From: Zobellia alginiliquefaciens
Lineage (GTDB): Bacteria > Bacteroidota > Bacteroidia > Flavobacteriales > Flavobacteriaceae
Length of the DNA stretch: 64,000 nt
Direction: 5' to 3'
Assembly: GCF_029323795.1 (NCBI RefSeq)
Contig: NZ_CP119758.1
Span: 806,001-870,000, forward strand
Numbering within the stretch: position 1 is the stretch's first letter; every line of letters begins with the position of its first letter. Shown here in pieces: positions 5,906 to 63,023 of the stretch. Under the pieces are notes generated by a model, which ran no database searches, had not been told where the DNA came from, and saw only the letters and a list, made by a program, of their open reading frames with translations. A program made the translations under genes and the position numbers.

Positions 5906-5970
5906 AGATTTTATTTTAATTTTTAAAAACAAGGTAGTCGAACCACGGACTTTAACCTTTCATTATATAT

Positions 5971-6001
5971 CAAAAAAAAAGCCTGAACATTGTTCAGGCT
6001 T
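5971..6001 (-). terminator. Intrinsic terminator of typA
   Basis: Stem arms AGCCTGAAC (5980-5988) and GTTCAGGCT (5992-6000), followed on the minus strand by an unbroken T-run, lie just after the typA stop codon at 6008. Confidence 0.88.
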
Positions 6002-6007
6002 CTCTAT

Positions 6008-15235: not shown

Positions 15236-15630
15236 GGGGCCGACTGGTTTTGACAGCGAGACCAATGGCATTGTAAGCATGTTGAGCGCTGGGGTACAGC
15301 TCATTAATATCATACTTCACACTTTTAATTGGCGAAAACAATTACGCTCTTGCCGCATAATCTGAATTATAGTAAGATTTGCCTCGTTCCGACAAGGTCG
15401 GAAAGCGAGATGTCTCTGAACAGCCCTTGTTGGCGGCGGTTCATTTAGAGGCACCAGAAAAGTCAACATAAGGTCGTTATTGCTTTGGTAGCGGCACCAA
15501 AACTTTAAGAAGCTAAGTGTATATTAGGCCGTTTCCGGTCAGATATGCATCGAAAATCAATCGGAAACTAAACATGTAGAAAGCTCTGTAATTGCTTGTT
15601 TGGACGAGGGTTCGACTCCCTCCGGCTCCA
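15236..15630 (+). ncRNA. ssrA: Transfer-messenger RNA (tmRNA)
   Basis: The 5' end GGGGCCGACTGG pairs with the 3' end CGGCTCC, giving a seven-pair acceptor stem whose third pair is G-U, the alanyl-tRNA synthetase identity element. A T-arm sequence GGTTCGACTCC precedes it, and the discriminator base is A15630. CCA is not encoded (CTC follows), so it must be added by nucleotidyltransferase. The internal reading frame encodes the tag GENNYALAA. With SmpB it rescues ribosomes stalled on broken mRNAs and marks the peptides for proteolysis. A promoter box lies upstream and a terminator follows. Confidence 0.95.
15331..15360 (+). other. tmRNA tag-peptide reading frame
   Basis: The resume codon GGC at 15331 begins a frame reading G-E-N-N-Y-A-L-A-A then TAA. 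It ends in the LAA degron recognised by ClpXP-type proteases and is a typical Bacteroidota tag (an alanine charged on the tmRNA itself precedes it). Confidence 0.93.
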
Positions 15631-15635
15631 CTCAG

Positions 15636-46831: not shown

Positions 46832-47674
46832 TTACCTATCGTTAATTTCCACAAGTTTGTCATCGCTCCATTCGCCACCGGCTACCAAATCGCCATCAGA
46901 ATCAAAGAATTTACCGGTTCCGCTACGTTTATCCTCTTTCCATTGGCCAGCGTACTTTTCGCCGTTTGGCCAGTAATACGTACCAAATCCGCTGCGTTTA
47001 TCGTTTTTGTAGGTACCAATGTAATATTCGCCATCAGGCCAGTAGAACGTTCCTTCGCCATCGCGCTGGTTGTCCGCCCATTGCCCTTCGTAACGACTGC
47101 CGCTATCCAAAAGTGCAATTCCGTAACCGTTGGCTTTTCCATTTTTTACCTTGCCAACATAGTGCATTAAGTTGCCTTTCGCACTTTTAAATTTTAGGTA
47201 TTGGCCAGAAGATTTATCCTTCATCTGTTTCTTCAAACGGGCCAATTGTACTTTGGTTTTCTCCAGTGAAAAGTTTAAAGAATCATATTTACGTACTTCA
47301 CTTGCCGTAGCTCTGGTTGGTTTTGGCAAACTGTCCAATTCCGCTTTTAACGAATCTTCTTTTGGTCGGGCTCCGGACTTCACTTGTGCCAATTTCTGCG
47401 CCAAGGCAATACGTAACGGAATTCCCATTTTATTTTCTTCCCTCACCTTTAAAGAGGCCGTATACGATTCAATTGCCGAATCATATTTACCTTCCAACAA
47501 CATAGAATCTATAATAGCCAATTTCTCATATTCGTCCAGTTCTTCGGAAATCTGCCCTTGTTGTACCTGGGCTTCCTCCAACTGCTGCTTCAACGAATTC
47601 GATTTTATAAAATAGAACAAAGAACAACCGATACTAGCGGCCAAAATCACATAAATTGCAATATTCTTTTTCAT
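46832..47674 (-). CDS. Membrane-anchored MORN-repeat protein
   Basis: This 280-residue protein has an N-terminal membrane helix (IAIYVILAASIGCSLFYFI), a long coiled coil (about residues 28-155) and four to five MORN repeats at the C-terminus: KVKNGKANGYGIALLDSG, RYEGQWADNQRDGEGTFYW, YYIGTYKNDKRSGFGTYYW, KYAGQWKEDKRSGTGKFF. MORN repeats bind membranes or scaffold proteins. It is the last gene of an operon with the DUF2490 and MORN-like genes upstream on the minus strand. Confidence 0.85.
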   Translation of the reverse strand: MKKNIAIYVILAASIGCSLFYFIKSNSLKQQLEEAQVQQGQISEELDEYEKLAIIDSMLLEGKYDSAIESYTASLKVREENKMGIPLRIALAQKLAQVKSGARPKEDSLKAELDSLPKPTRATASEVRKYDSLNFSLEKTKVQLARLKKQMKDKSSGQYLKFKSAKGNLMHYVGKVKNGKANGYGIALLDSGSRYEGQWADNQRDGEGTFYWPDGEYYIGTYKNDKRSGFGTYYWPNGEKYAGQWKEDKRSGTGKFFDSDGDLVAGGEWSDDKLVEINDR

Positions 47675-47702
47675 GGTTTCTTGGTTTTATGTTTTATACG
47701 GC

Positions 47703-48533
47703 TTAATCGTCTAGATGGATCGATGGTAATTTCTTTTTCACCCTTCTGAAATCCGGGGAATAGTACATATGAAAGCGCATCGTCCAGGTTTGTTTAAAAT
47801 ATCCCGCATTGACCAAATCCTGTCCTTGGGAGTACATTAATCCGGCAGCAAAAGTCAGTCTTGGAGTAGCGATATAACCAAAAGTGGTCGTCAATCGTAA
47901 ATCTTCCATGGCACTGCCCACAACCTCTTTTCCGCTTTGCATAATCAGTTCCGCTTCCGGGGAAACGTAAAAAGTCTTGGGCTTTAGTTTGTGGCTGTTT
48001 AAAGGCACTTTTGCCCGGAACATATAACGCCATCTATTTCTGTAGATGTAATCACTGTTCTCTACAAAACTCTGCGTCCACCTATGTTCTATTCGGATAC
48101 GATGGTAAATCATTGCGGTATATAGCGGCTGTGCAAATTGATACTGATGCCAAATACGCCATTCGGGAACCACGTTTCTATCTTCGGAATCCTCATCTGT
48201 ATTAAAATTGATACGCACTACCCCACCCAAACTAAAGTTCACCTTTTTAGAATAAATGTACCCAATGGCGTGGCGGTTATAAATTTGACCGATCTGACCA
48301 ATAAACGGGGTTTCTTCCGTTTCTTGAAAACGAAAATGGGTCTGTGCATCCCAAAACAAACGTTTTCCTATTCTTATTTTACCGTAGGTATTCACCCAAA
48401 CTTTAGTGGTCGGGTCTTTGTATTGTGATGATTCCGGTAAATATACTTTTTCCTCTTCTTGCGCCATGACGCTTCCGGTTACCACCAAGAGCGACATTAC
48501 GAGCCAAATAAAATTATTTCTTCTGCTTTCCAT
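47703..48533 (-). CDS. DUF2490 outer-membrane protein
   Basis: This 276-residue protein carries a signal peptide (to about residue 24, SVMAQ) and a beta-barrel-like rest with the DUF2490 pattern: VWVNTYGKIRIGKRLFWDAQTHFRFQE, EWRIWHQYQFAQPLYTAMIYHRIRIEHRW, YIYRNRWRYMFRAKVPL, and a final aromatic strand. It is expected in the outer membrane. It is 2 bp from the upstream MORN-like gene and 28 bp from the downstream one, so all three form an operon. Confidence 0.82.
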   Translation of the reverse strand: MESRRNNFIWLVMSLLVVTGSVMAQEEEKVYLPESSQYKDPTTKVWVNTYGKIRIGKRLFWDAQTHFRFQETEETPFIGQIGQIYNRHAIGYIYSKKVNFSLGGVVRINFNTDEDSEDRNVVPEWRIWHQYQFAQPLYTAMIYHRIRIEHRWTQSFVENSDYIYRNRWRYMFRAKVPLNSHKLKPKTFYVSPEAELIMQSGKEVVGSAMEDLRLTTTFGYIATPRLTFAAGLMYSQGQDLVNAGYFKQTWTMRFHMYYSPDFRRVKKKLPSIHLDD

Positions 48534-48535
48534 GT

Positions 48536-50470
48536 CTATTTCTCTTTGGCGGTTGATTGCTCATGAAGCAGTTTCATAATCTCATTGGGGTTCTTCTCCC
48601 TACGCAATTTGCGTTCTAGTTTTTTGGTATCCTCTTCCCTAAGTTTCACCATACGATCGTTGGTATGTGTAATCTGCTCGGTAAGCTTTTTTGCATTCTC
48701 ACAATCCACTTGAGTTGCTTGTATCAGAAAATCAGGAAGGAGTATTTCGCTGTAGGCGGAAGTAACTCTCTTTTTCACCCCTTCTTGCATTACCGTTGCC
48801 ATAAAGGGGTTCCAAATGGCATCTTCGTACAGTACTTTTATTTCTTCGGATGTAGCGGGAAGGTTGCCAAGAACACCCGTTAATTCCTGTAATTCTCCCA
48901 AGCATACTTTCAGCTTGTTACCAAAAGCCAATTTCTCTTCGGGCTTGTTCAAGGAAGCATATTCCCCTAAGGACTTGTCCGCGAGCTTTTTTAAGTTGTT
49001 TAGCGGAGCATTGTATAGCAACGGCAGTGCAGGCAGCAAAGAATCTATTTGGGTTACCAAACTATCGTTCTCCGCAATCAAGTCTTTTTCCAGTCCGTTT
49101 AGGGCCTGTAGTCGTGCCTCGTTCGTCAATCGGTCGGATAAGGATTCCATAAGCTCATGTAAACTTAGCTTGGCGTATTCGGCTATTGCGGCGACCGTTT
49201 TAGTGGAGTTGCCATTAAAATTGAATTCACCCGTATTGGCCAATACAAAAGTTCTTGTGTTTTGAGCCGTATCCGTTACAACTTCAATATTCGTATTGGG
49301 CTTTCCGGACGGCCACAATTGTTGCATCAATTTGGGAAGCTCCATATATTCCAGAATATCTTCCTCCTTATACTTTACAAAAGTGTGAAGCGGTTGTAGA
49401 AAATCGGCATCTATTTTTTTGACCACTTCATATCTATACTGCGCATCGGCATCGGAGCGGCGTACAATATTCAAGTGACTGTTATTTAAAAGGGTATCGC
49501 TGATGGATTTTGCCGCTTTAAAATCTTGGGCAATTTGGTCAATATCTGCTTTCTGCTGGGCATCCAATGCATAAAAAGGGACTTTCACCTGAAAATTAGG
49601 AGTCAAGTCCGTTGATCCCATTTTGTTTAAAATGCCGTTCAATCTTGAATAGTAACCGTCGTTCTCGGCCAACAGCTGGGCAACATCACTTTTAAAATCA
49701 ATAGAATTTTCAGAAGTTATGGTTGCTTTTAAAAGGTCTATATATCCTTGATTTAGTGCAATCGTTTTGTAAGAGTCGTGCGAAGTAAAAACATTAATTT
49801 CTTTGGATATCCCATCCGTGGTCCAATTGATTTTCTGTAGCAGCCCCTCGTCAAAAATCCAGTTTTCGGTATCTTCTAGGTCATTAGATGCGTAGGAGGT
49901 CCATTCGTCATGCGCTAGCCCGTTTCTTAGAAAGCGGCCCACGAGCACCGTACTATCGTTTTCCATCTGAAAACTTTGTTGGGGCACGCCATTTTCAAAA
50001 TTGATGATACTGCTAAAAAGTGTGGTTTCTACTTCGGAGGATTTAATACGGTTTACTTCATACGACCATTTTCCATGGGGCTTTCCGTTTAAAATAGTTC
50101 CCCTTCCCTCCTCTTGTTGGCCACTGACCAACACGCGGTATTCGTAACCTACAAGCTTACTTTCGCTCTCCGTTTGAAACTCGCCAAACTGAAAAAGCCA
50201 AGGTCCCGTTGGGGTGCCTTTATCAAAACTGCCTTCCATTAAAAAAGAAGTATCCGCTTCTTCCAATAAGGCATTGAGGTTGCTACTTTGTAATTGAAAA
50301 GTACCATCGTAGAGGGTGTCCTGTTCCGTTACTACATAGGTGTAGGCAGCTTTCCCCTTGTAGGCACCAACTTCTAGCGGGCCATTGTATTGTTGCTTCT
50401 CCTGACCATACGAATGGCACAGGAACACCAGGGAAATTAAAAGAACAAGCCGTTTTTTAAAATAGATCAT
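48536..50470 (-). CDS. Secreted MORN-like repeat protein
   Basis: The ATG at 50470 gives 644 residues with a clear signal peptide (IYFKKRLVLLISLVFLCHSYG); the upstream extension lacks signal character. The first part carries degenerate MORN units (GSFDKGTPTGPWLFQFGEF, GRGTILNGKPHGKWSYEV); the remainder is mainly helical with coiled-coil stretches and a terminal charged helix (VKLREEDTKKLERKLRREKNPNEIM). It is the first gene of the three-gene operon. Function is not known; an envelope scaffold is inferred. Confidence 0.7.
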   Translation of the reverse strand: MIYFKKRLVLLISLVFLCHSYGQEKQQYNGPLEVGAYKGKAAYTYVVTEQDTLYDGTFQLQSSNLNALLEEADTSFLMEGSFDKGTPTGPWLFQFGEFQTESESKLVGYEYRVLVSGQQEEGRGTILNGKPHGKWSYEVNRIKSSEVETTLFSSIINFENGVPQQSFQMENDSTVLVGRFLRNGLAHDEWTSYASNDLEDTENWIFDEGLLQKINWTTDGISKEINVFTSHDSYKTIALNQGYIDLLKATITSENSIDFKSDVAQLLAENDGYYSRLNGILNKMGSTDLTPNFQVKVPFYALDAQQKADIDQIAQDFKAAKSISDTLLNNSHLNIVRRSDADAQYRYEVVKKIDADFLQPLHTFVKYKEEDILEYMELPKLMQQLWPSGKPNTNIEVVTDTAQNTRTFVLANTGEFNFNGNSTKTVAAIAEYAKLSLHELMESLSDRLTNEARLQALNGLEKDLIAENDSLVTQIDSLLPALPLLYNAPLNNLKKLADKSLGEYASLNKPEEKLAFGNKLKVCLGELQELTGVLGNLPATSEEIKVLYEDAIWNPFMATVMQEGVKKRVTSAYSEILLPDFLIQATQVDCENAKKLTEQITHTNDRMVKLREEDTKKLERKLRREKNPNEIMKLLHEQSTAKEK

Positions 50471-50776
50471 TCGGCAATTTTGGTATATAATTGGTTCGTC
50501 TTGGTAGTAAAATACGGAGCTCAGCCCCATATGGACGTTTGCCTGAAGCCTTTTTGACGAATACGGAAACCTCTACGTCTATTTTTACGGATTTATCAGA
50601 CAATCAACCACTTCCATTAAAAATTAGGGCAAACCTGCTCATTTTCAAACGGATGTGAAAAAATGTATCTATCACATCGGGCTACATCCATTTTCAAAAT
50701 TATTATCAAGCTAGAATAATTGACTCCCTTCCATTTTTTACCTTTACGTATTCCCAACACTTCAACCCAAAATATC
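50471..50776. other. Non-coding gap
   Basis: About 300 bp between the divergent MORN operon and ATP-grasp gene. I see no reading frame of note, hairpin terminator, repeat, or perfect TAnnTTTG box. Promoters for both genes are expected here but cannot be assigned. Confidence 0.5.
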
Positions 50777-51832
50777 GTGCAAAAAATAGCTATTCTATAT
50801 CAGGCCAAACTACCCCCAATAAAAGATGGGGTGCAGAAACCAATGAAACCTGGTGGATATTCAGACAGTGGGGCGGATATTGCTTGTGCGCTACATAAAC
50901 ACGGCATACAAATAGTAACACCTGTAGATGAACCCAATATAGAAACCTATTTGGATTGGGTATTTCCGGATACCAAAGAAGGCATTGAAAAAGCCTTGGA
51001 AAAAGGAGCCAATACATTTTGGCTGAATACCGTTTTGTACAAAGAACATGAGATCACACATTTCTTTGACCGTGATGTCCGGTTTGTTGGGCAACTACCA
51101 GAGGAGGTAGATATGTATGACGACAAATATTTTACGAACGAATTTTTAAGAAATAACAACATTGCCATTCCAAGGACCCAACTAATTTCAAGTGAAAATT
51201 TTACCGATTATTCGCTTGAAATGGATTTCCCTCTGGTCGTTAAACCCTTAAGAGGTAGGGGAAGCCAAGGTGTATCTTTAGTAAAGAACCCTACAGAACT
51301 GAACATTCAACTCAACGCGATATTCTCAGGCGAAGCATACGGCACAGTAGTGTATGTAGAGGAGTTTTTAAACGGTCAGGAAATTACGGTAACCGTAATG
51401 CCTGCGGGTACGTATACCATCAATGACCAAGAGATACGTTACAAAAAACCCTGGTGCCTACCGGCCGTTAAAAGGTTCAACCATAAAGACGGTATTGCCC
51501 CCTACAACGGTACGGTGGCGGTCATGCAAAATAGCTCGGTTCTGGATGAGGATGAACTGAATTCTAAAGAAGTTGAAAAGGCATACGCCCAATGCGAAAA
51601 AGCGGGCGAACTCCTGAAGATAAAGGCCCCTATTCGTATAGATTGCCGCGCGGATATAAAAGGGAATTACTTTTTGTTCGATTTGAATATGAAACCCAAT
51701 ATGACCGGACCTTCACGACCCAACAGGCAAAACCAAGATAGTTTAACCTTACTGGCCGCAAGAAAAATAGGTTGGGACTATATAGATCTTTTAAGAAATA
51801 TGCTTAAACAAGCTTGGAAAACCCATAGCTGA
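50777..51832 (+). CDS. ATP-grasp ligase, D-alanine-D-alanine ligase-like
   Basis: The start is uncertain: a GTG at 50777 (351 residues, VQKIAILYQAK) begins the conserved N-terminus, and a TTG at 50720 would add 19 residues; there is no upstream ATG. The ATP-grasp fold shows VVKPLRGRGSQGVSLVKN (phosphate-binding loop), VYVEEFLNGQEITVTV and FDLNMKPNMTGPSRPNR (metal-binding loop). Such enzymes join a carboxylate to an amine through an acyl phosphate; the substrate is unknown. The VOC gene follows after 13 bp. Confidence 0.75.
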   Translation: MQKIAILYQAKLPPIKDGVQKPMKPGGYSDSGADIACALHKHGIQIVTPVDEPNIETYLDWVFPDTKEGIEKALEKGANTFWLNTVLYKEHEITHFFDRDVRFVGQLPEEVDMYDDKYFTNEFLRNNNIAIPRTQLISSENFTDYSLEMDFPLVVKPLRGRGSQGVSLVKNPTELNIQLNAIFSGEAYGTVVYVEEFLNGQEITVTVMPAGTYTINDQEIRYKKPWCLPAVKRFNHKDGIAPYNGTVAVMQNSSVLDEDELNSKEVEKAYAQCEKAGELLKIKAPIRIDCRADIKGNYFLFDLNMKPNMTGPSRPNRQNQDSLTLLAARKIGWDYIDLLRNMLKQAWKTHS

Positions 51833-51845
51833 CCATGAATAAATT

Positions 51846-52517
51846 ATGCAGATCAAAGAATTAAAAATATATAGCTCAAAGATTAAAGCGCAAACCCACT
51901 TCTATACCCAAATTTTAGGATTGAGGGTTCTACGCCAAAGTGATAAAAATGTGGTTTTGCAACTGGGGAAATCCATTCTCCACATAGCCTATGCACCTAA
52001 AACAACACCGTACCATTTTGCCATTAATATTCCCGCAAACCAGGAAACTGAAGCGTTAGACTGGCTGAAAGCAAAAGTGAAGATATTGACAAATGGCAGC
52101 AAAGAAATACAGGATTTTGAATTTTGGAATGCCAAAGCCATTTACTTTTATGATCCAGACCACAATATAGTGGAGCTTATTGCCCGGAAAAACTTGAACA
52201 ATGCTTCCGACCAAAAATTTAACGCCGATCAGTTTCTTGAGATTTCGGAAATAGGATTGCCTACCCATGATATTGAAAAAGAATTCATTGAACTACATAC
52301 GAGTACCGGAATTGAAATCTACGATGGAGGGTTTAGTAGGTTCTGTGCCATTGGCGATGAACACGGACTTTTTATATGCATTAACAAAAGCGTAAAAGAC
52401 TGGTTCCCCACGAATGACAAGGCTTTTTCTTCCGATTTTGAAATAAAACTTACCGAGAAAGGCAAAGCGTACCAAATTACCTATAAAAATGAAGAACTAA
52501 AGACCGTAAAAGATTAG
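51846..52517 (+). CDS. VOC/glyoxalase-superfamily protein
   Basis: This 223-residue protein has one clear VOC module: IKELKIYSSKIKAQTHFYTQILGLRVLRQ, then FDPDHNIVELI-like FYDPDHNIVELIARK at about residue 110. A second, weaker module follows (ISEIGLPTHDIEKEFIELH, FCAIGDEHGLFICIN). VOC proteins are metal-dependent lyases, isomerases or dioxygenases, or antibiotic-binding proteins. It probably works with the ATP-grasp enzyme encoded 13 bp upstream. Confidence 0.75.
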   Translation: MQIKELKIYSSKIKAQTHFYTQILGLRVLRQSDKNVVLQLGKSILHIAYAPKTTPYHFAINIPANQETEALDWLKAKVKILTNGSKEIQDFEFWNAKAIYFYDPDHNIVELIARKNLNNASDQKFNADQFLEISEIGLPTHDIEKEFIELHTSTGIEIYDGGFSRFCAIGDEHGLFICINKSVKDWFPTNDKAFSSDFEIKLTEKGKAYQITYKNEELKTVKD

Positions 52518-52761
52518 TTTATAAAAGCGTATCCGCACTGAAAACACGGATAACAAAGAAAAGAGTTCATAAAAACCCACGTTATACCCGTAATTTCTTA
52601 CACTTTAACGAGTAAAACAGTAGATGACCGCAATTGTAAAAAGAACACTTGTTTTTAGTATTGCTATTTTACGATATTTAAGGTGTGTAGGAAAATAGTG
52701 TTGGGGTTTGAGTGAAACACGAAAATAACCCTATTAATATACTGCTTATAACAAATTGGAT

Positions 52762-55539
52762 ATGAACATACCTGTTTCTTTCAAAAAGATAATTGAAAAA
52801 AATCAAAGATTAAATGGAATAGTCAACTATACTATTTCACAATATGATACAATTCTTAGGGAAAACAATTTATACTTTTTTGAAGAATATACTGACCATG
52901 GAATAAAGCATATAGAATCTGTATTAACTTCAACAGTTAATATCGTTCCCAAGGAAACTCAAGAATTATTTCTACAAGATGACTCTAGTTCAGTCTCTAT
53001 ATATGTTCTAGCTACAATTTTACATGATATTGGCATGCACATAACTCCTGAAGGATTTTATTCTTTAGTTTCAGGAGAATATGATGATTTAAGAGTCACA
53101 GAAATTGATAATAAAACTTGGAAAGAATTATGGAATGATTATTTGGATGATGCAAGGAGGTTTGGAGATATCGAAAAGAAAAATATTATTGGAAATCCAT
53201 CTTGGGACTTTAAAATTCCTGAAATTGAAAACAAGGATAAATTAACGGGAGAAGACAAAAAATTAATAGGTGAATTTATTAGGAGAAATCACCCACGAAT
53301 TGCTCATGAAATAGCATTAAGAGGTTTTCCTACCAAACAAGGTCATATTGCATTTGCTTCAGAATTAGATTATGACCTTAGAAATTTATGCGGTTTAGTA
53401 GCCAGAAGTCATGGGGTTAACATTAGGAGTCTTTTTGAATATTTAGAATTAAAATTTCAGGATACTTGGGCAAAGCCTTATAACATTGAGATTATATATT
53501 TGATGATACTATTGAGGATTGCAGATTATTTTCAAATTGACTCTGCAAGAACTCCCGAAGTAACCGTTAAACTGAAATCTTTTAATTCCCCAATTTCTCA
53601 AATCGAACACTTCAAACATTTAGATGTAAAATATGTCCAACCTTATAATAAGGATCCTGAAACTCTAATCTTACAATGTGAACCAAGAAATAGCTATATA
53701 TTTATTAAGTTGAAGGAGTTATTTGAGGATATACAAAAAGAATTGGATAAAAGCTGGGCAATATTAGGTGAAATTTATGGTAAAGAACTAAAAGAAAAAC
53801 AGCCTAAAATCTGTTATAGACGAATAAAATCAAATATCGATAACGTAAATGAATATTCAAAGAAGGTAAATTATATACCTGAAAAAATAGTTTTTAATGT
53901 TTCTAATGAATTGCCAAAATTATTAATAGGTCCTTTATATGGGAATGACCCAACATATGGAGTTAGAGAACTTCTTCAAAATGCTGTTGATTCTTGCAGA
54001 GAGCGTGAGTTTCTTGAAAATTCCGAATATACTGGTTTAGTGAAAATTAGTTTATACTCGGAAGCTGATAAATACTTCTTTAAAATTGAGGACAATGGTT
54101 TTGGAATGAATCTTGGTGTTATCAAAAACTATTTTCTAGAGGTCGGTTCTTCATTGAGAAAGAGTTCTATATGGAAAAAGAATTTCTCAAATAAAGAAGG
54201 ACAGTCTAAAATTCAAAGAAGTGGAAGATTCGGAATAGGTGTTTTAGCTTCTTTTTTACTTGGAAATAAATTGTGTTTAGAAACAAAAGATTCCAATTCA
54301 AGCAATGGATTATCCTTTACAACTGATTTAAACAGTGAACAAATAGAAATAACCAAAATAAAAAAAGAATCTGTAGGTACAACTATCATTATACAAATTG
54401 AAAAAGAAGTTTTAGAAGAGTTAAAAAATAGTTCTTACAGCTTTGATAAATGGTACTTACAAAACAACCCTAAAGTTGAATACTTTGATAAAACAGGGAC
54501 ATTCACAGAATTTGGAGATATAGAAAAAACTCCAGGATTTACAGATGAATTAATTGCTTCATCATGGAGGGAATTAAAAGTTGACGGATTTAATAAAATC
54601 ATATGGACTTATGACAAATCGTTTTGTAAAAAAATGTATGGTTCTACACGTAGTGGTAAATTTATTTCTAATGGTATTTTAATCCCTAAAGTTAAAAGTT
54701 TTAGCTGGAATGATATTACCATACCTTTCATTTCTGTTTTCGACTTTGATGGAAACCTTCCATTAAATTTAAGTAGAAATGATTTAGATAGCGGTGTAAT
54801 CCCTTTTCAAAAGAAACTAAAGTTAGAAATTTATAAAGATATAATCGCAAAGCTTCTTAACACTAAAATTGAGTTTCCTTTAAATATTGAGAAATTCAAA
54901 AATCAAACATTTTATCATCCTGCAATAGGAGATATTAAACTTGCTTTTTCAAAAGAGGGGTTTATTCTTAAAGAAAAATTCTTTAGTGAAAAGAACTCTA
55001 AAAGAACGATACTGTATTTTTTTCCAAAAACGGGTTTTAAGTCTTTTGAGAATTTCGATATTAAAGATGCTTTTATTTACCTGAGAAATGAAGAAGATTT
55101 GGCAATGACCAGTTTTCAATACAATGCAAACATTCGAGAGTATAATGGTGGTGCTAAACTTTATATCAGCAGGCCAATGTACAATAAGTTATTTGATAAT
55201 AATTATAATAGATATCCAAAAGCAGTCAGGAGAGACCACATAGAACTAAATTCTGATAGTGACTTTACCGAAATCTCATATAATTACCCTGCTAGCTCTT
55301 CAGAATTAAATTTAAACGATTTAAAAAATAATTTACACCAATGCAACTGTATAATTGAATCTAAGTTAAAAACAATAGATGATTCAATAGGTAAGAACTC
55401 ATCCAAAATATTTAGTGAATTGTTAAATAAATATTTTAATAAAATTAGTATTATTCCATATTCACTTCAAGAAAGAAAAGAAACATTTAATTTAGCCTTT
55501 AGTGAATTAGATTACTATATGAAAAAATACACAGACTAA
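52762..55539 (+). CDS. HD-domain/Hsp90-like ATPase fusion protein
   Basis: I use the ATG at 52762 (925 residues). The N-terminal HD phosphohydrolase domain shows H46 and H50 in YTDHGIKHIES and the H88-D89 pair in ILHDIGMH. A second region is a GHKL (Hsp90/MutL/kinase-like) ATPase: N407 in ELLQNAVDS, D444 in EDNGFGM and G488 in GRFGIGVLASF. The C-terminal 350 residues are unassigned. The gene is visibly more A+T-rich than its neighbours and stands alone, suggesting acquisition. HD plus Hsp90-like fusions occur in bacterial defence-related contexts, but function here is inferred only. Confidence 0.85.
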   Translation: MNIPVSFKKIIEKNQRLNGIVNYTISQYDTILRENNLYFFEEYTDHGIKHIESVLTSTVNIVPKETQELFLQDDSSSVSIYVLATILHDIGMHITPEGFYSLVSGEYDDLRVTEIDNKTWKELWNDYLDDARRFGDIEKKNIIGNPSWDFKIPEIENKDKLTGEDKKLIGEFIRRNHPRIAHEIALRGFPTKQGHIAFASELDYDLRNLCGLVARSHGVNIRSLFEYLELKFQDTWAKPYNIEIIYLMILLRIADYFQIDSARTPEVTVKLKSFNSPISQIEHFKHLDVKYVQPYNKDPETLILQCEPRNSYIFIKLKELFEDIQKELDKSWAILGEIYGKELKEKQPKICYRRIKSNIDNVNEYSKKVNYIPEKIVFNVSNELPKLLIGPLYGNDPTYGVRELLQNAVDSCREREFLENSEYTGLVKISLYSEADKYFFKIEDNGFGMNLGVIKNYFLEVGSSLRKSSIWKKNFSNKEGQSKIQRSGRFGIGVLASFLLGNKLCLETKDSNSSNGLSFTTDLNSEQIEITKIKKESVGTTIIIQIEKEVLEELKNSSYSFDKWYLQNNPKVEYFDKTGTFTEFGDIEKTPGFTDELIASSWRELKVDGFNKIIWTYDKSFCKKMYGSTRSGKFISNGILIPKVKSFSWNDITIPFISVFDFDGNLPLNLSRNDLDSGVIPFQKKLKLEIYKDIIAKLLNTKIEFPLNIEKFKNQTFYHPAIGDIKLAFSKEGFILKEKFFSEKNSKRTILYFFPKTGFKSFENFDIKDAFIYLRNEEDLAMTSFQYNANIREYNGGAKLYISRPMYNKLFDNNYNRYPKAVRRDHIELNSDSDFTEISYNYPASSSELNLNDLKNNLHQCNCIIESKLKTIDDSIGKNSSKIFSELLNKYFNKISIIPYSLQERKETFNLAFSELDYYMKKYTD

Positions 55540-55774
55540 TAATTGTAACCTTTTAAACAAACCCATAATTAATAAAATAAAAAAGTCTTCAGCCTAAAAC
55601 TTTTCCCATTCCCAAAAAACAAAAACCCACCATCCACACAAAATAACGGCCTACCTATACAAAACCGCTTAGCGCGTTCCCTTCTTCTTTTTATATTGCC
55701 ACCTCTATTCCCTCTACCGAATATCATCATGTAACGCATTGCGAACTTTAGTCGCAATATAACTACTCCAAAAA

Positions 55775-56137
55775 ATGAATGTTCAACTACGTAGAGCCTA
55801 TATCTCCAGCGCAATTGCACTAATTGCCGCACTCTTATTACAATCTTGTTACACCACCCGTTTGGTAAGCACACACGGCGTGCCCATGCCTCCTGAAACC
55901 ATGGAAGGCCAAGATTGGTACCGCGATAAAATGTACGGAGAATATACGGCTGTAGTAAAAACCTCCGTGCTTACGGATGGTATGATGATCAAAGTTCCCA
56001 AAGACAAATGTGAATCCGGAAAACTGTTTTCGGTTGAATTCACGGACACTTTTGGTGGCAACCTTTTGTACTTAGTAACTTTTGGAAGCCGTAGAAAAGT
56101 GAAGATAAAATATGTATGTATGCTACCTGATCTTTAA
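55775..56137 (+). CDS. Small lipoprotein upstream of the FAD oxidase
   Basis: This 120-residue protein has a lipoprotein signal with the Cys at residue 25 (LLLQSC). The mature part is short and beta-rich (YGEYTAVVKTSVLTDGMMIKVPKD, LLYLVTFGSRRKVKIKYVC). No family is recognised. The stop is 4 bp before the ATG of the FAD oxidase, so the two are probably co-translated. It may anchor or serve the enzyme at the membrane (inference). Confidence 0.65.
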   Translation: MNVQLRRAYISSAIALIAALLLQSCYTTRLVSTHGVPMPPETMEGQDWYRDKMYGEYTAVVKTSVLTDGMMIKVPKDKCESGKLFSVEFTDTFGGNLLYLVTFGSRRKVKIKYVCMLPDL

Positions 56138-56141
56138 TATT

Positions 56142-57779
56142 ATGGCCAAGACAAGTGAATTATTAGTTGGAAAATGGGATACGTTGCACGAGAACGGGGC
56201 TTTTGACCTGAAGCGTCAATATATTACCCGTCACGAACATAAAGCCACTATGCCCAGCAGGGTGCTGCGCTATAACGACGCAGCGGAAGAAATGCAGCGA
56301 TTGATTAAAAAATGTGAAACGGAAAATGAGGGTTTCCGTGCGTACGGCTCGCGTTGGTCTATGTCCAAAATTGCGCATCAAAAAGATAATATGCATCAAA
56401 ATAATTTGATGTATCTAGACCTTGAAATAGAGGAAAGCGATATGCACCCTGATTCTGAATACGCGCATGAAAATATTTTCTTTTTTGAATGCGGAAGTAC
56501 CATAAAACGCATTTCGCAAAAATTGAACGAATACGGTAAATCCTTAAAAACCACAGGTGCCAGTAACGGGCAGACTATTGCCGGTTGTATTTCCACCGGT
56601 GTACATGGGTCCGCTTTTGATATTGGTGCGGTACAGGATTATATTGTAGGCTTGAACATCCTTACGGGACCAAATGCTGAAGATAATGTGTATCTGGAAC
56701 GGCATACCCAACCCAGTTTAAACGATGCTTTTGCTCAAAGTATTAACGCTAGGGTCATTAGGAACGACGACCTTTTTAATGCCGCGTTGGTGGGTTTAGG
56801 GAGTTTTGGATTTATTCATGGCGTTGCCCTAGAAGCGGAAGACCTTTTTTTGTTGGATAGATATGTGAGAAGAATCGATAAAGACCTGGCCCTGTCCTTA
56901 TCCCAAACTTTAGATTTTAAGAATTCCGAGTTTAAAATTGATAACGAAGTAGATGAAAATGGAAAACCTAGCAGACCGTACCACTATAAAGTTTTTATTA
57001 ACCCTTATGTGGACGAAGACCAATATGTAATAGAGGCCATGTACAAGAAAAAGTACACTCTGGCCTACCCGGACCCGTTTACTAAAATTGAAAAATCGCT
57101 TTATAAAGACCTTATTTATTTGCTGATCAAATTCAGTGAGAAATTCCCGAAAAGTATTCCGTGGTTTATAAAAAGTCTACAAAAAAGCATTCTACCGGAA
57201 ATTACCAAGGACGAAGAAAAAATTAGGGCTACGCTCTACGAAACCTTTTGGGATGCCGGTTACAAAGGCCCTGCTTTTGCCTGTTCTATGGGCGTTGCCA
57301 TTGAAGATTCCGAAAGGGCATTGAACGCGCTGGTAAAAATGACCAAAGACCATCCTATTCCCGGAATTTTTGCCATGCGCTACGTGAACCAAACCGAAGC
57401 CACTTTGGGTTTTACCAAATTCCATAAAACCTGCGTTATTGAGATTGACGGCATCCAATGGAATAAATCCGATAAAATTCCCAGTCTGGAAGAATATGGT
57501 CGGTTTATGATAGAGGCAATGCAAGCTGAAAATATTCCGTTTACCGTGCATTGGGGCAAAAGCATGGACTATGCGTTTCCCAATCTAGCCCACCACATGT
57601 ACGGCAACAACACAGACCAATGGATGAAATGTAGAAGTTGGCTGCTATCCGAGAAAATGGCGAACGTATTTTCCAACGAATTTATTACCACATTAGGATT
57701 GGAAACGTATCATAATGTGCCTAACGATTTTATTGAGTCTTTGGATAAAAGCGGGCAGCCATTGCATTTTATTGTTTAG
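56142..57779 (+). CDS. FAD-linked oxidase, PCMH-type (lactone oxidase-like)
   Basis: The ATG at 56142 gives 545 residues; a longer frame would overlap the lipoprotein gene. The FAD-binding PCMH domain shows FRAYGSRWSMSKIA, SLKTTGASNGQTIAGCISTGVHGSAFDIGAVQDYIVGL, and a later LVGLGSFGFIHGVALEAE, the usual features of sugar-lactone or alcohol oxidases. A C-terminal substrate domain follows (FTVHWGKSMDYAFPNLAHHM). No signal peptide is seen, so it is cytosolic; the substrate is unknown. It is followed by a 276-bp gap before the membrane NTPase gene. Confidence 0.85.
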   Translation: MAKTSELLVGKWDTLHENGAFDLKRQYITRHEHKATMPSRVLRYNDAAEEMQRLIKKCETENEGFRAYGSRWSMSKIAHQKDNMHQNNLMYLDLEIEESDMHPDSEYAHENIFFFECGSTIKRISQKLNEYGKSLKTTGASNGQTIAGCISTGVHGSAFDIGAVQDYIVGLNILTGPNAEDNVYLERHTQPSLNDAFAQSINARVIRNDDLFNAALVGLGSFGFIHGVALEAEDLFLLDRYVRRIDKDLALSLSQTLDFKNSEFKIDNEVDENGKPSRPYHYKVFINPYVDEDQYVIEAMYKKKYTLAYPDPFTKIEKSLYKDLIYLLIKFSEKFPKSIPWFIKSLQKSILPEITKDEEKIRATLYETFWDAGYKGPAFACSMGVAIEDSERALNALVKMTKDHPIPGIFAMRYVNQTEATLGFTKFHKTCVIEIDGIQWNKSDKIPSLEEYGRFMIEAMQAENIPFTVHWGKSMDYAFPNLAHHMYGNNTDQWMKCRSWLLSEKMANVFSNEFITTLGLETYHNVPNDFIESLDKSGQPLHFIV

Positions 57780-58055
57780 ATGGATTGGCTATGATGCTCG
57801 GTATTGAAGAAAACTGCCATTCGCACAAAATTCCGTACAAGTTATACAACACTACAACAGTCAGGAAGCAAAATCGTTAATTTAGGATTTTACTTACCGA
57901 ACGGTAAGCGCATTTTTACAACAAATAAAGGTTCCCTAAAAATAGAAACTGGCTATACACTGTCCTTGAAATTATTTTTCAATTGGTACATAGCTTAAAA
58001 TACATGATGGCCTCCATTGTGAACACCTCATTTTCTAATTCTTATTGCAGAACCT

Positions 58056-61000
58056 ATGCCCACTACTTCTTCTTTAGGAAATTCTTTACGTAGGCCCTTT
58101 ACAGCAAATAAACGGCTCTTTACCCTGCTTACCGTAGCCTTTATAATTATTGGTGTTTTCTTTGCCATCTACTACTCTCATATTAAGAATAACGAACACC
58201 ATTATCGTGAGTCTAAACTTCACAGTTTAGATGCCAATTTTGATATTATATCAAAACAACTTAATAACGATTTTCAGAAGTATTATGCTACGGAATACAA
58301 CACTATTTCCAAAAGCAAAGAGGTAATTACTGAACTTAAATCAAAGAACAAGGAGTTAACGGACCTAAAGTGGAATGACCTATTGAAAACTGCCAATAAG
58401 ATAACTCCATTAACTAGAGCCACAAAAAAAAGTGTATCAGAAAAGAAAGAAGACCAAGATTTAATAGATCAAGGAGATTCTATTACCAAGAACAAAATAA
58501 GGCCTAAAGTGTGGAATGCCCTTAAGCACAAAATAAGGGAGAGCACACCATTTGACCAGGAGTTTGATGAATATATAGTCATTTTTAAAAAAGCTCCAGA
58601 GCCTAACCAAAATAAACAAGGGGACTCCACCATTGAACTGAGTTCCCTAAAGGGGCGAATTATACTTCCTGACAGTCTTAATACGCTCAATCCCTTTAAC
58701 ATTGGCATGTCTATAGGCATTCCTAAAAACGATGAAGTTTATCAGCTTTTTGGGCGGAAATACGTCTATGAAACCCCTTTGGACTCCAATGTACACTATG
58801 ATATTGAAATATATGGATTAATTGAAACGGAACGGTACAATGAGGCCGTCAGAAAATTAGACCCGTGGATAATTGCACTGTTAACCACCTTCTTATTACT
58901 TGGCCTTTTTGGAATGCCCTATTTCAAAATGCTCTTTATTGCCGAAGATGAGCGGCTATCCAGTAATGACGTTATACTATCCGGCATATCCGTAATTATT
59001 GGTGCCCCAATTTTAATACTTGTGTTCTTCTCCCTTATGAACCATTATTACGATTACTACTACAAGTTTCCAGACAGACTTGACTATTTCAGTAAAGAAA
59101 TAAAAACTCGTTTTGAGGCTGAAAACACAAGTAATGTAACTTCTCTTTATGAGATGTCCTTATCAAACGAAGAACAAATTAGAGATACTCTAGCTAGCCT
59201 ACAAAATAGCGATAGTATATCTGTTCCAATTTCAGAGGTGAATGGAATCTACCGAGAAAACCACAAGTTCATTTCTAAAATTGATACCACTACTGGGGAA
59301 GTAAAGTATCACATTAGGCTCATTGACAAAAACAACATTAAGAACACCACAAACCTCGGAAGCCGACCTTACTATACGGATTATGTTGATTCTAAAAATA
59401 TCTGGTTTCAAAATACATCCGCCAACAAAATTAAATATATCATGCGGCCTGTGGTGTCCATTGAAGACCAAAGTGAAGAAGCCATCTATTTACTTAAAAA
59501 CAAGCAGGACTCCATCCCGGGTTATAGGGTGGGTGCCGCTCAATTGAAGTCCTTGCATGAGGCCATTTTACCCTTTGGCTTTCAGTTTGCCGTAGTAGAC
59601 GAAGATGGAGAGGTTTGGTTTCATTCAAAAAAAGGCAGGGCTACTTTAGAAAATTTTCTAAATGTAAGTCGATATAACAGTAAAATAAAGGCAGCCATGC
59701 AAGCAAGGATTAAGGCCAAGGGCATGGTAAATTATAGAGATGAAGGACAACTATACAGTATAAGCCCCATATCCAACACAAATTTAAGTGTAATTGTCCT
59801 TTATGATATTGCACTGCTGCGCACTAAAGTTTCCGAAGTTTTAGCCCTTTCCTGCATTGGTATTGTAATGGCCTTGATTTTAATATTGATTATTACCATC
59901 CTATCGCTCATTATAAGAAACCCTAAGCTAGGACTCTATAAATATGATCGCTTCTTGTTCGAGTTTTTAACTCCAAAAAAGTCCTTAAAAACCTCCTACA
60001 TTCTTCTTTCGATAGTACTAATGGGGTTAGTTTCAATTGCTTTTTTAATCAGTTTTCACATAGGGGCCGTCACGGCTTACATCCTCTGTCTTCTTCTCGC
60101 CATATATGCTTACCTCATCATATTCTACACTTTGCATCCCTACAGAAGCAATGGCGATTTTAAGTTTAAGGTACGGGACCTTATTATAGTACTGGCCATA
60201 ATTTTCCTCAATATCCTCACTTGTAAGGTAAACGATAATGAAGTGAACTATGTGCTTCCTTCCCTTCTAGCGCAAACCGTGTTATTAGTTTTTATCTACA
60301 TCAACAAATCATCCAAAAACATAAAATTCGTTACCCCTCTCCAAGGCCAAGTCCATGCCTTTATACAGAACATTGGGAACTGGAAAGGTGGTATACGCAT
60401 GGGTTACAGGTATTGGTATGCCCTATTTCTATTCTGTTGGCTGCTTTTATCTACCATATTTCCAGCGTATGTGATTTTTAAAAACGCCAAGATTTTAAAC
60501 GATGACATATGGTCCAAGGCGAATAAAATTGATATGGCCAGACAGTTTGTGGATAAAGAAAAATTGCTTGAAACCAGTTTACCTGCCTTTAAAAATCAAA
60601 AAGAACAATTTAATCAACTTCACAAGGACCACTTAAAACTTGGTCAATATCACGAAACATTTGCCCTGGAGGAAATTACCGACGGCAAAACGCTTGGAGC
60701 CAATAAGAAGAATACATTCCTAGAGGATTTCCTCTGGCAAATACGGCCAACGTTTGACGTGCGCATCAACGAATTTCAAGGTATGGTCTATGACTATGCG
60801 CAAGATCTATCCTGGACCAGTAATAAAAATGAAAATACATTTCAAATTAATTATTTGGATAGCGATAAAAAGGTTGGAATTACTGAAAATGCTCCAGAAA
60901 ACCAGAAACATCCGCTACCTATTAAATTCATTATTCTAGTTAGTATTGGAGTTGTCATCATATTGGCTGTTCTGTTTTCATTGATTCTGTTTTTTTCAGA

Positions 61001-62231
61001 TCGTTTCTTTGCTTTCCGCTTTCGTCATTTAGAACCCAACGATTTCGACACAAATCAAAAAGAAGGATATATTGAAAAATTTGGGCAAATTCTCCACGAT
61101 GAAAAATCCAACTCAGGGTTGCTTCTTATCGGACCGCCCTTTTGCGGAAAACAGACCTTTGCCAAAGAAATTCTAACGGATGCCGGTTACCAGAGCATAG
61201 CCACACTTTCTATGTTGCAACTAGAGAATATGCCAATGGAATCTGACATTGGGGACCACCTTGGTATTCTTTCCAGCAGCTATAAAAATGGACAAAATGA
61301 TTTTCGTCATGAGGATTATGAAGCCTTCGTAATAGAGCATTTGGAACATAACATTAAATCATTTGATGCCAATCATACCAAACTCAGAGTTATCCTCTTT
61401 TTAATCTCTCAACGTAAACGTATTATTCTGGTCTCGGAGGTTTACCCCAGTCAGATTTTTTCCATGTATGAATCCGCTCAAGGAGAAGCCGAACATTCCT
61501 TGGGAAAACTTCAAGACGACTTTAATTCTTGGCGAAACATTTTAAGTGCGTTTCCCCAAGTCTTGATAGGTATCACTAAAAACACGGAAAAAGTAGTTAA
61601 GAAATTAAATTTCGGACTTACACGGAATCAGAGTCCATCCGCAGATGATATTTCCGTACTTACAGATGAATTGGGATATAGCAAATTTCTCCCCACTCTA
61701 GCACCTGTTATTTTGGTCAAGTCCCTTTATGACACGCCTCATACCGTAAACCAACCGCATCGCCTAGACCGGCAGCGCATGGTTATGCATACCCAAAATC
61801 TGGCCCATGGCTACTATAATGATATTTGGAACACCTTACCCACACGTGAGCGCTATCTGCTTTACGATCTAGCTAAAGATGGCTTTATGAACATAAAGAA
61901 TAGAAACTCGCTCTTTTCACTCATGAAAAAAGGACTAATAGTATGGAACGACCGTCCTAAAATTTTCAATTACAGCTTTAAGAATTTTATAATGACCTCG
62001 GTATCACTAAATGAAGCCTTACGTCTAGAAAACAAAAACCGTGGCAAGGGTACTTGGGCCAACACCCGTATTCTAATTTATCTGGTCATTATAACCGTCA
62101 TTATATTCATTGGTTTAGGAAAGCCGGAACTACTAAAAGATTTTGAAACCCTGGTGGGCACACTGGGCGGACTAGGCGTTTTAATCCCCCTAATTAGCAA
62201 ATTATTGGCCTCTGGAGGTCAAAAATTATAA
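58056..62231 (+). CDS. Large membrane protein with a C-terminal P-loop domain
   Basis: This 1391-residue protein has a membrane helix at about 21-42, an extracytoplasmic region, helices near 275 and 312-337, a second extracytoplasmic, Cache-like region (FGFQFAVVDEDGEVWFHSKKG), and further helices between 595 and 975. A cytosolic P-loop domain begins with GPPFCGKQT at 1026-1034, where Gln occupies the first Ser/Thr site, and a Walker B-like RIILVSEV. A helix-turn-helix-like segment (RERYLLYDLAKDGFMN) and two helices close the protein. It may be a signalling NTPase that reads an external ligand. It lies 18 bp before the metzincin gene. Confidence 0.72.
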   Translation: MPTTSSLGNSLRRPFTANKRLFTLLTVAFIIIGVFFAIYYSHIKNNEHHYRESKLHSLDANFDIISKQLNNDFQKYYATEYNTISKSKEVITELKSKNKELTDLKWNDLLKTANKITPLTRATKKSVSEKKEDQDLIDQGDSITKNKIRPKVWNALKHKIRESTPFDQEFDEYIVIFKKAPEPNQNKQGDSTIELSSLKGRIILPDSLNTLNPFNIGMSIGIPKNDEVYQLFGRKYVYETPLDSNVHYDIEIYGLIETERYNEAVRKLDPWIIALLTTFLLLGLFGMPYFKMLFIAEDERLSSNDVILSGISVIIGAPILILVFFSLMNHYYDYYYKFPDRLDYFSKEIKTRFEAENTSNVTSLYEMSLSNEEQIRDTLASLQNSDSISVPISEVNGIYRENHKFISKIDTTTGEVKYHIRLIDKNNIKNTTNLGSRPYYTDYVDSKNIWFQNTSANKIKYIMRPVVSIEDQSEEAIYLLKNKQDSIPGYRVGAAQLKSLHEAILPFGFQFAVVDEDGEVWFHSKKGRATLENFLNVSRYNSKIKAAMQARIKAKGMVNYRDEGQLYSISPISNTNLSVIVLYDIALLRTKVSEVLALSCIGIVMALILILIITILSLIIRNPKLGLYKYDRFLFEFLTPKKSLKTSYILLSIVLMGLVSIAFLISFHIGAVTAYILCLLLAIYAYLIIFYTLHPYRSNGDFKFKVRDLIIVLAIIFLNILTCKVNDNEVNYVLPSLLAQTVLLVFIYINKSSKNIKFVTPLQGQVHAFIQNIGNWKGGIRMGYRYWYALFLFCWLLLSTIFPAYVIFKNAKILNDDIWSKANKIDMARQFVDKEKLLETSLPAFKNQKEQFNQLHKDHLKLGQYHETFALEEITDGKTLGANKKNTFLEDFLWQIRPTFDVRINEFQGMVYDYAQDLSWTSNKNENTFQINYLDSDKKVGITENAPENQKHPLPIKFIILVSIGVVIILAVLFSLILFFSDRFFAFRFRHLEPNDFDTNQKEGYIEKFGQILHDEKSNSGLLLIGPPFCGKQTFAKEILTDAGYQSIATLSMLQLENMPMESDIGDHLGILSSSYKNGQNDFRHEDYEAFVIEHLEHNIKSFDANHTKLRVILFLISQRKRIILVSEVYPSQIFSMYESAQGEAEHSLGKLQDDFNSWRNILSAFPQVLIGITKNTEKVVKKLNFGLTRNQSPSADDISVLTDELGYSKFLPTLAPVILVKSLYDTPHTVNQPHRLDRQRMVMHTQNLAHGYYNDIWNTLPTRERYLLYDLAKDGFMNIKNRNSLFSLMKKGLIVWNDRPKIFNYSFKNFIMTSVSLNEALRLENKNRGKGTWANTRILIYLVIITVIIFIGLGKPELLKDFETLVGTLGGLGVLIPLISKLLASGGQKL

Positions 62232-62249
62232 TAACTAAATACACATATC

Positions 62250-63023
62250 ATGGGAAAGAAAACAAATTCACAAGAGCTATTCGCTCAAAAAAGCAAAGAA
62301 GAATTAATGGAAAACGGGCAATCTGGCGTACACATGTACGGAGATAACTTTATTTGTGCCACGGACCGCTCGGGACATTCCACCCCGGGTGACCGATCTC
62401 CGCTTGAAATTTTGGTGGACGCCAGTGAAGGGTTCATTCCTCTTTGGGCACAACATCAGGTTTTACGTTGGACTTTTGACGAAACTGCCTTATATTATTA
62501 TCAGAACCCTGAAGGTATAAAAACCTATGTTCGGGAATTGTTGGGTGAGGCGTTATTGGGTTGGGGCGATGCGGTACCCGTTCGTTTTAGTGAGAATGCG
62601 GACAATTCCGATTTTCAGATACACGTGTCGCCGTCCGATAATTGTAATGCCCACGGATGCGTTTTGGCAAGTGCCTTTTTTCCGGATAGTGGAAGACATC
62701 AATTGGTGATATATCCAAAAATGTTCGAACAGAGTAAACAAGAACAATTAGAGACCATGATGCACGAATTGGGTCATATTTTTGGGCTTCGCCATTTTTT
62801 CGCAAAAATCAGTGAACAGGCATGGCCATCGGAAATATTTGGCGAACACAAACCTTTTTCTATCATGAATTACGGTGCAGAAAGTATGATGACCGAAGAA
62901 GATATCAGGGATTTAAAAAAGCTCTATGAAATGGCCTGGAACAAATGTATAGTGGATATTAATGGTACACCCATTCATTTGGTCATGCCTTTTCATACCA
63001 TCAACACGGCTGTTGTGGTATAA
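62250..63023 (+). CDS. Metzincin-type zinc protease without signal peptide
   Basis: This 257-residue protein carries the zinc site HELGHIFGLRH (three His plus the catalytic Glu) and a Met-turn SIMNYGAES, as in matrixins and other metzincins. The domain starts near WTFDETALYYY. The N-terminus (MGKKTNSQELFAQKSKEEL) is polar, so the protein looks cytosolic, which is unusual for metzincins, most of which are secreted. It follows the membrane P-loop gene by 18 bp and precedes a secreted-protein gene; a role as a regulated effector is inferred. Confidence 0.82.
   Translation: MGKKTNSQELFAQKSKEELMENGQSGVHMYGDNFICATDRSGHSTPGDRSPLEILVDASEGFIPLWAQHQVLRWTFDETALYYYQNPEGIKTYVRELLGEALLGWGDAVPVRFSENADNSDFQIHVSPSDNCNAHGCVLASAFFPDSGRHQLVIYPKMFEQSKQEQLETMMHELGHIFGLRHFFAKISEQAWPSEIFGEHKPFSIMNYGAESMMTEEDIRDLKKLYEMAWNKCIVDINGTPIHLVMPFHTINTAVVV

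Follow-up and report, generated by a model that had tools for sequence, protein, structure and literature searches.

What is a solitary, A+T-rich gene that joins an HD domain to an Hsp90-like ATPase doing in a flavobacterial chromosome, and where did it come from? The gene lies in a 64,000-nucleotide stretch of Zobellia alginiliquefaciens (contig NZ_CP119758.1, positions 806,001 to 870,000, forward strand), which we call the window and whose features are collected in Table 1. An earlier note, made from the letters of the window, had called the gene probably acquired and a candidate defence protein. We find that horizontal acquisition, as an accessory gene, is supported by base composition and genome comparison, and that a role in defence is likely, judging from the company that the gene and its relatives keep. 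The gene also follows a non-coding leader that, elsewhere in the genus, precedes unrelated defence systems. Compared with the fusion protein itself, this leader is the less expected and the most novel result.

The open reading frame (ORF) has its ATG at 52762 and its stop at 55539, encodes 925 amino acids and has no internal stops; the ORF list places its mechanical start at an in-frame TTG two codons 5' of this ATG. Pfam HD-CE (PF24391) matches residues 40–330 across the whole model (1–263 of 263; E 1.2e-39, 137.1 bits against a curated cut-off of 27), and HATPase_c_3 matches residues 401–537 (E 1.5e-8). At the level of the sequence, these domain calls leave no room for chance. The HD ligand set comprises H46/H50, H88-D89, H177, H217 and D255, and the ATPase carries the boxes N (ELLQNAVD; E403, N407, D410), G1 (DNGFGM, 444–449) and G2 (GRFGIG, 488–493). 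When 15 proteins are aligned, H46, H50, H88, D89 and H177 are invariant in all 14 rows that cover them, and H217, D255, E403, N407, D444, G446, G448 and M449 of G1, F490, G491 and G493 of G2, and R672 are kept in 15/15; D410 is kept in 14/15. The HD phosphohydrolase domain with its H-HD residues and the complete GHKL boxes that had been read from the translation are both borne out by these matches and by this conservation.

How far does the likeness to Hsp90 extend? Residues 368–560 align with HtpG at an hhalign probability of 99.6 (E 6.3e-24). Modelled at full length (925 residues) from a 5-sequence alignment, the protein reaches a mean predicted local distance difference test score (pLDDT) of 58.9, which limits interpretation of the model to the Hsp90 part. 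Against this model the E. coli HtpG N-domain aligns with a VIA-align Z of 18.4 (178 residues, 3.9 Å), and TRAP1 (4z1f) aligns to residues 371–697 with a Z of 16.9 (259 residues, 4.0 Å); a Foldseek search of the PDB with this low-confidence model likewise gives HtpG and TRAP1 as top matches (E 8.7e-10). Residues ~555–705 are probably an Hsp90-middle-like segment according to the model, their match to the HtpG profile being weak when they are taken alone (hhalign E 0.09–0.12). Within this segment lies the loop GNLPLNLSR with R672. The HtpG-type loop DIPLNVSR carries the catalytic arginine of Hsp90, and an LPLNLSR-type motif is visible in 11 of 13 HtpG-like sequences inspected. Residues 700–925 do not match the HtpG profile significantly (E 0.13), model confidence being low there, and the matches of distant relatives end near residue 700–722, before a C-terminal tail of ~220 residues. 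Of the large unassigned C-terminus in the earlier description, residues ~555–705 thus have a probable assignment and ~706–925 have none. A Pfam scan of the whole protein found neither a nucleic-acid-binding nor a reverse transcriptase domain.

For the HD domain we used a separate model of residues 1–345 (pLDDT 68.4). By VIA-align it matches an exopolyphosphatase with a Z of 12.5 (178 residues, 3.0 Å), a tRNA processing enzyme with 9.4 and cyclic-nucleotide phosphodiesterases (PDEs) with ~7.5–8.6. These modelled matches are consistent with an HD hydrolase and, in a helical domain, not decisive. Foldseek with the same model gave no significant match (best E 0.39), and we rejected the best hit (E 0.23) obtained by searching PDB sequences with an alignment of the HD region.

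Is the gene at home in this genome? Its GC content is 0.286, against 0.398±0.025 in the 38 other window ORFs (minimum 0.329), and at third codon positions (GC3) it falls to 0.195, against 0.366±0.043 (minimum 0.284). Its synonymous-codon divergence, a Kullback–Leibler (KL) value of 0.204 bits per codon, is exceeded by four of the 38, so that the gene's oddity is an A/T-ending bias and not codon use overall; the strongly A/T-ending codon use that had been noted is confirmed by GC3, while some other window ORFs deviate more in their overall codon use. A protein search found no match to the fusion protein in any of eight congeners. Among the 51 other relatives searched, seven have matches; size and range mark most of these as HtpG-like and one, in G026, as a distant HD–ATPase fusion. 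The nearest relative that we found is a gene of Gillisia lutea with 67% identity over residues 1–924 and a GC of 0.279; it sits at a contig end, with only its downstream side visible.

We compared the window stretch 47000–62300 by blastn with the orthologous site in five congeners, leaving out G003, G005 and G008, whose right flank gave no match. The site is empty in three: 227 bp separate the flanks at 52503 and 55685 in G007, 422 bp lie between 50622 and 55692 in G006, and 114 bp between 50622 and 55629 in G004. Foreign DNA fills it in the other two, between window positions 52735/52736 and 55613/55614. The insert of G002 encodes HamA and HamB, a Hachiman system (PADLOC E 1.5e-121 and 1.4e-246); that of G001 encodes two ORFs of 269 and 224 amino acids, neither with a family match. 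One site with unrelated defence cargo in relatives is the mark of a defence hotspot, and it is what we observe here. With the A+T bias, the lack of matches in 8/8 congeners and a site that is empty or otherwise filled in 5/5 readable genomes, the case for acquisition has grown, and a core gene with normal codon use is excluded across nine genus genomes. The gaps beside the gene, 244 bp (52518–52761) and 235 bp (55540–55774), hold no operon partner, as had been seen before. No recognisable repeats bracket the slot as transposon ends would. To its left, the ATP-grasp and glyoxalase-like genes (50720-52517) vary too, being kept in G007 and missing at the site in G001, G002, G004 and G006.

The core defence hotspots (cDHS) of Pseudomonas aeruginosa have conserved flanks, changing defence cargo and lower GC (PMC10250203), and the window site shares all three features. 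It differs in that its cargo adjoins a conserved non-coding leader of which there are copies at several sites; the passages of that report consulted describe none for cDHS (PMC10250203).

At the window site the 5' part of this leader is 87% identical in G001 (52568–52735) and 93% in G002 (52589–52736), and blastn did not find it at the three empty sites. The full leader reaches ~400 bp, of which the first ~150–170 bp are left before the fusion gene and ~130 bp in G003 and G006. With a full copy as query (L118:6857–7262), we found 15 matches in 9/9 genus genomes, truncated copies counted, and one long match outside the genus (G018, 78% over 318 bp), for a total of 16 copies in 10 genomes; the family-wide search scored two candidates per genome, so other genera may be under-counted. 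This total excludes 25–29-bp matches near lipoprotein genes, a 27-bp match in L126, 22–55-bp matches in seven other family genomes (E 7.7e-5 to 8.3e-4) and a ~100-bp stretch in G007. Plasmid and phage records gave no match to the leader.

The copies occupy four or more sites, judged by eye from their neighbours. Site 1, that of the window, carries one in the source genome (G000), G001 and G002; site 2, beside TetR-like and ABC-transporter-like genes, carries one in G000, G001, G002, G003, G004, G006, G007 and G008; site 3 is in G002, and further places with partly shared neighbours are in G005, G008 and G018, one of them a 47-bp remnant (G005). The pairs of genomes compared at site 2 are all those that include G000, G001, G002 or G003. 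The left flank is colinear as far as the leader in seven genomes, G007 differing; 3' of the leader, the first ~1.1 kb or more contain no stretch over 40 bp that the genomes compared have in common, after which conserved right-hand genes resume in several. In G007 the full leader and the Thoeris genes are preceded by ~1.5 kb that hold two ORFs (of 128 and 284 amino acids), and these in turn by a ~100-bp leader-like stretch (L123 reverse strand, oriented ~5655-7300); this stretch and the ORFs are possibly a second cassette in tandem with the first.

How is the leader placed with respect to the genes behind it? Counting ORFs of 130 amino acids or more, the next one is co-oriented with the leader in 16/16 copies, and in eight of the ten copies whose match reaches the leader end it starts 4–33 bp beyond, the exceptions being site 4 of G008 (297 bp) and G018 (334 bp). 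Within the leader lies an imperfect inverted repeat of the form GCAATTGT-N7-ACACTTGC. The pattern GCAATTGTAAAANNNACACTT has 11 exact matches in the nine genus genomes, all within leaders, and a reversed-pattern control has none; it occurs in 11/15 genus copies, in 0/4 of those of G005 and G008, and is absent from all other genera in a family sample of 397 genomes. Two exact matches in viral contigs extend 23 bp at most and were judged chance.

Other elements of the leader were also considered. A structured RNA is unsupported (RNAalifold 33 pairs, three with double-sided change, covariation term +0.49), and in window 50500–57000, L116, L118 and L119 nothing reached the Rfam gathering scores. 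A leader peptide was set aside, as the apparent ~23-codon ORF of several copies is not kept, by eye, in L153 and L154. The hairpin-like sequence GGTTATACGGCATATGCCTTGTATCC closes most full leaders, ~20-40 nt 5' of the cargo start codon (L118:7212-7248 and equivalents), and in the loci scanned it occurs once per leader and never between cargo genes. These hairpin counts bear on a possible integron cassette array, which would carry an integrase and repeated attC-like hairpins. Site-1 leaders also hold a 25–29-bp sequence around TTACACTTTAACGAGTAAAA (window 52592-52618), itself an inverted repeat (TTTTAC…GTAAAA), which six genomes (L117, L120, L122, L125, L127, L128) also have in the intergenic DNA ahead of a small lipoprotein-like gene.

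We scanned one to four cargo ORFs behind each of 14 leader copies with PADLOC, those of G018 and of site 4 in G005 lying outside the scan. Strong matches (E <1e-70) stand behind eight of the 14, a figure without a base rate for random accessory genes, and comprise Hachiman, Thoeris, Shedu, a DndC-like protein and four candidate systems. Site 1 of G002 has the Hachiman genes; site 2 has PDC-M71A/B in G000, SduA (second ORF) in G001, PDC-M30A/B in G002, the DndC-like protein (second ORF) in G003 and ThsA/ThsB in G007; site 4 of G008 has PDC-S54, then LmuB-like and AbiEi/AbiEii genes further on; and the 47-bp remnant of G005 is followed by PDC-M49A. Six other leader cargos that we measured have a GC of 0.284–0.318, like the window gene. 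Behind the G018 copy, a 531-amino-acid ORF is a reverse transcriptase by Pfam. The second copy of the source genome (L116:7256-12016, genome position ~883255) lies ~25 kb downstream of the fusion gene, its PDC-M71A/B cargo (a kinase and a tetratricopeptide repeat protein) being followed by an HNH gene. The copy followed by PDC-S54, the LmuB-like ATPase and the AbiEi/AbiEii pair (L153:1635-8603) makes up a small defence island.

Relatives of the fusion protein point the same way. A 395-genome phylum sample holds at least seven other genomes with a relative over residues ~1–700 (E 8e-229 to 8.5e-129), as well as weaker HD–ATPase fusions; 207 genomes match in all, mostly HtpG-like by size and range among the matches listed. 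Two relatives lie on IMG/VR viral contigs, and both are encoded on the other strand from the larger ORFs around them. One (L159, 5998-8805) has 935 amino acids and 35% identity and sits on a 52-kb contig; the other (L160) has 1041 and 31%. The viral relative's gene has no match in E. coli genomes. By eye, the neighbours in L159 are temperate-phage lysis and replication genes, with a protein-kinase-like ORF nearby. In L075 (5477-13638) a relative lies directly downstream of genes scoring PDC-M28A, B and C, with HNH and uracil-DNA glycosylase (UDG) genes after it, and in L076 (6452-12894) three PDC-M28-like genes stand, by eye, directly upstream of a relative; it is possible that the HD–Hsp90 relative and the HNH and UDG genes are further parts of the PDC-M28 candidate system. 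The L082 relative adjoins ABC-3C genes, and that of L081 is near a sub-threshold TIR match. The HD region of the distant HD–ATPase relatives in L082 (8032-10464) and L032 (5116-8535) matches the defence reverse transcriptase RT_UG24 of PADLOC (E 1.9e-11 and 6.5e-8), which suggests that HD domains of this type may also be at work in a different defence architecture. Among plasmid and phage records no match covered 80% of the query, and those listed were mostly at the level of the ATPase. Distant HD–ATPase fusions seem to be present on a plasmid of Priestia megaterium (25.6% identity, 56% covered) and in two records of Lachnospira (Eubacterium) eligens (21% identity, 54% covered).

The Hachiman system in the G002 slot, the leader before defence genes, the two viral-contig relatives and the PDC-M28 neighbour all strengthen the proposal of a defence protein. 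We lean, if only slightly, towards the view that this horizontally acquired gene constitutes an anti-phage system on its own, with its Hsp90-like clamp gating the HD phosphohydrolase. Its basis is the domain order, the intact catalytic residues, the slot and leader shared with defence systems, the relatives on viral contigs and the defence-candidate neighbour. The Hsp90-like part would bind and hydrolyse ATP and, like other GHKL proteins, would probably dimerise as a clamp that either keeps the HD domain switched off or detects a product of the phage. Infection would change the state of the clamp and let the HD domain hydrolyse a phosphate bond in a nucleotide (a deoxynucleoside triphosphate (dNTP), an NTP or a signalling nucleotide), and this hydrolysis would starve phage replication or halt the cell. 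We infer each of these elements, namely ATP gating, dimerisation, substrate, trigger and outcome. Depletion of dNTPs by HD dGTPases is known in phage defence.

The gating of the hydrolase by a clamp is proposed by analogy with VcSduA (type I-D Shedu), in which a GHKL ATPase is fused to a nuclease, phage protection needs both activities, and the authors propose that the ATPase controls the effector (PMC12137116). Both proteins couple a GHKL ATPase and a clamp-like middle domain to a hydrolytic effector in one chain (PMC12137116), whereas in the window protein the effector is an N-terminal HD domain, and SduA_C (DUF4263) is absent (Pfam scan, E up to 1). Read in this way, the fusion protein is an ATPase sensor with a hydrolytic effector, a known pairing in a new form.

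Would another function fit the same observations? The HD domain of Cas3 is a metal-dependent nuclease, and that of the fusion might likewise act on DNA or RNA, the Hsp90-like clamp loading it onto phage nucleic acid or opening it there. The genomic evidence for defence fits this equally well, the ligands form a full H-HD-H-H-D set, and VcSduA joins its GHKL ATPase to a nuclease (PMC12137116). However, the HD model has its fold neighbours mostly among phosphohydrolases (exopolyphosphatase, PDEs), the tRNA processing enzyme standing between them (Z 9.4) in a range (Z 8–12.5) that discriminates poorly for a helical domain, and Pfam found no nucleic-acid-binding domain; we regard a nuclease as unlikely, if a serious contender. 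We think it improbable that the protein is a stress or signalling regulator whose HD domain clears an alarmone or a cyclic nucleotide while the Hsp90 part senses ATP or clients, its location among defence genes being a coincidence. An exopolyphosphatase and PDEs among the fold neighbours and a stand-alone gene without an operon partner would suit such a regulator; a sporadic, A+T-rich gene that has its slot and leader in common with defence cargo, and whose relatives occur on viral contigs, would not. It is very improbable that the gene is part of a selfish cassette, a toxin-like effector with built-in control kept without anti-phage benefit: the cargo is replaceable and AbiE-like genes lie downstream of another leader copy, but the slot has no partner gene and the strong defence matches behind 8/14 scanned leaders speak for defence.

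Several observations weigh against a clamp-gated anti-phage hydrolase. The HD fold match is not decisive, and the HD substrate is not readable from sequence. Against 5027 PADLOC models, the window protein matches no family at E up to 0.1. Five of the 14 scanned cargos have no PADLOC match in the ORFs covered (the window gene, site 1 of G001, site 2 of G004 and of G008, and site 3 of G002), that at site 2 of G006 matches weakly (PDC-M24B, E 5.1e-6), and the count of eight strong ones has no base rate to set it against. The first cargo ORF at site 2 of G004 is DUF6119, and the PADLOC scan of it was null. The leader is truncated at the fusion gene, so that its role for this gene is uncertain. The closest relative (L029) has only a weak PADLOC match, in the ATPase region (E 4.4e-4), and by eye no defence neighbour accompanies the relatives in L029, L030, L072, L074 and L077.

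What, then, is the leader for? Its role could be regulation, a recombination anchor, or both. Tentatively, and at somewhat less than even chances, we propose that it is a genus-specific module, comprising an inverted-repeat operator, a promoter and a 5' untranslated region that runs to just before the start codon, which has spread to several sites and under whose single control unrelated anti-phage systems are swapped in; the HD–Hsp90 fusion would be one such cargo, with a new type of effector. If one 5' element does precede unrelated defence systems, it offers a handle on the exchange of hotspot cargo and on shared regulation of defence genes. It can also be used as a probe, by which the five PADLOC-null leader cargos, the fusion gene included, become ranked candidates. 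If the proposed function of the protein is right, an Hsp90-type clamp with an HD hydrolase is a new sensor–effector pairing in bacterial immunity.

Table 1. Features of the fusion locus, in window coordinates.
Feature	Coordinates	Strand	Description and basis
HD–Hsp90-like fusion gene	52762..55539	+	ORF and translation, Pfam domains, GC 0.286
HD domain (Pfam HD-CE, PF24391)	52879..53751	+	residues 40–330; Pfam match, invariant ligands and model
Hsp90-type (GHKL) ATPase domain	53872..54486	+	residues 371–575; N, G1 and G2 boxes complete
Probable Hsp90-middle-like segment	54424..54876	+	residues ~555–705; TRAP1 model alignment; profile match weak
Loop GNLPLNLSRNDL with invariant R672	54751..54786	+	HtpG counterpart DIPLNVSR and similar; 15-protein alignment and HtpG comparison
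C-terminal segment	54877..55536	+	residues ~706–925; no Pfam match; low pLDDT over most; no significant HtpG profile match
Variable slot	52736..55613		occupied by the fusion gene in the window, by Hachiman in G002 and by two unassigned ORFs in G001; G004, G006 and G007 without cargo; blastn
5' part of leader shared with defence cargo of congeners	52568..52735	+	rest of leader absent here; blastn
Imperfect inverted repeat GCAATTGT-N7-ACACTTG(C/T)	52630..52652		within leader; pattern search
Left flanking glyoxalase-like gene	51846..52517	+	GC 0.376; at the site in 1/5 congeners compared
Right flanking conserved gene	55775..56137	+	120 amino acids; site anchor; blastn against congeners

Has such a protein been described before? 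The HD domain of the window protein lies far above the HD-CE cut-off, and the HD–ATPase layout recurs in the phylum genomes given above (at least seven); the open-access literature gave no functional description under the name 'HD-CE', the papers found being unrelated by title. It likewise gave no HD–Hsp90 defence fusion and no such leader, which is weak evidence of absence because subscription papers and preprints were not covered. Like Hsp90/HtpG, the protein has the N-terminal ATPase fold, an LPLNLSR-type loop and a probable middle domain; unlike it, it has an HD domain in front, no recognised HtpG C-terminal domain and an accessory distribution (0/8 congeners). The PDC-M28 candidate is linked to the protein through the relative that follows its A, B and C genes in L075, whereas the window locus lacks such genes, none of the five genes adjoining the fusion gene (50720–62231) having a PADLOC match. 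The C-terminal region of RT_UG24 resembles the HD region of L082 and L032, whereas the window protein does not match it at E 0.1 and has no reverse transcriptase domain. Away from this locus, the window also carries a transfer-messenger RNA gene at 15236-15631, with the tag GENNYALAA.

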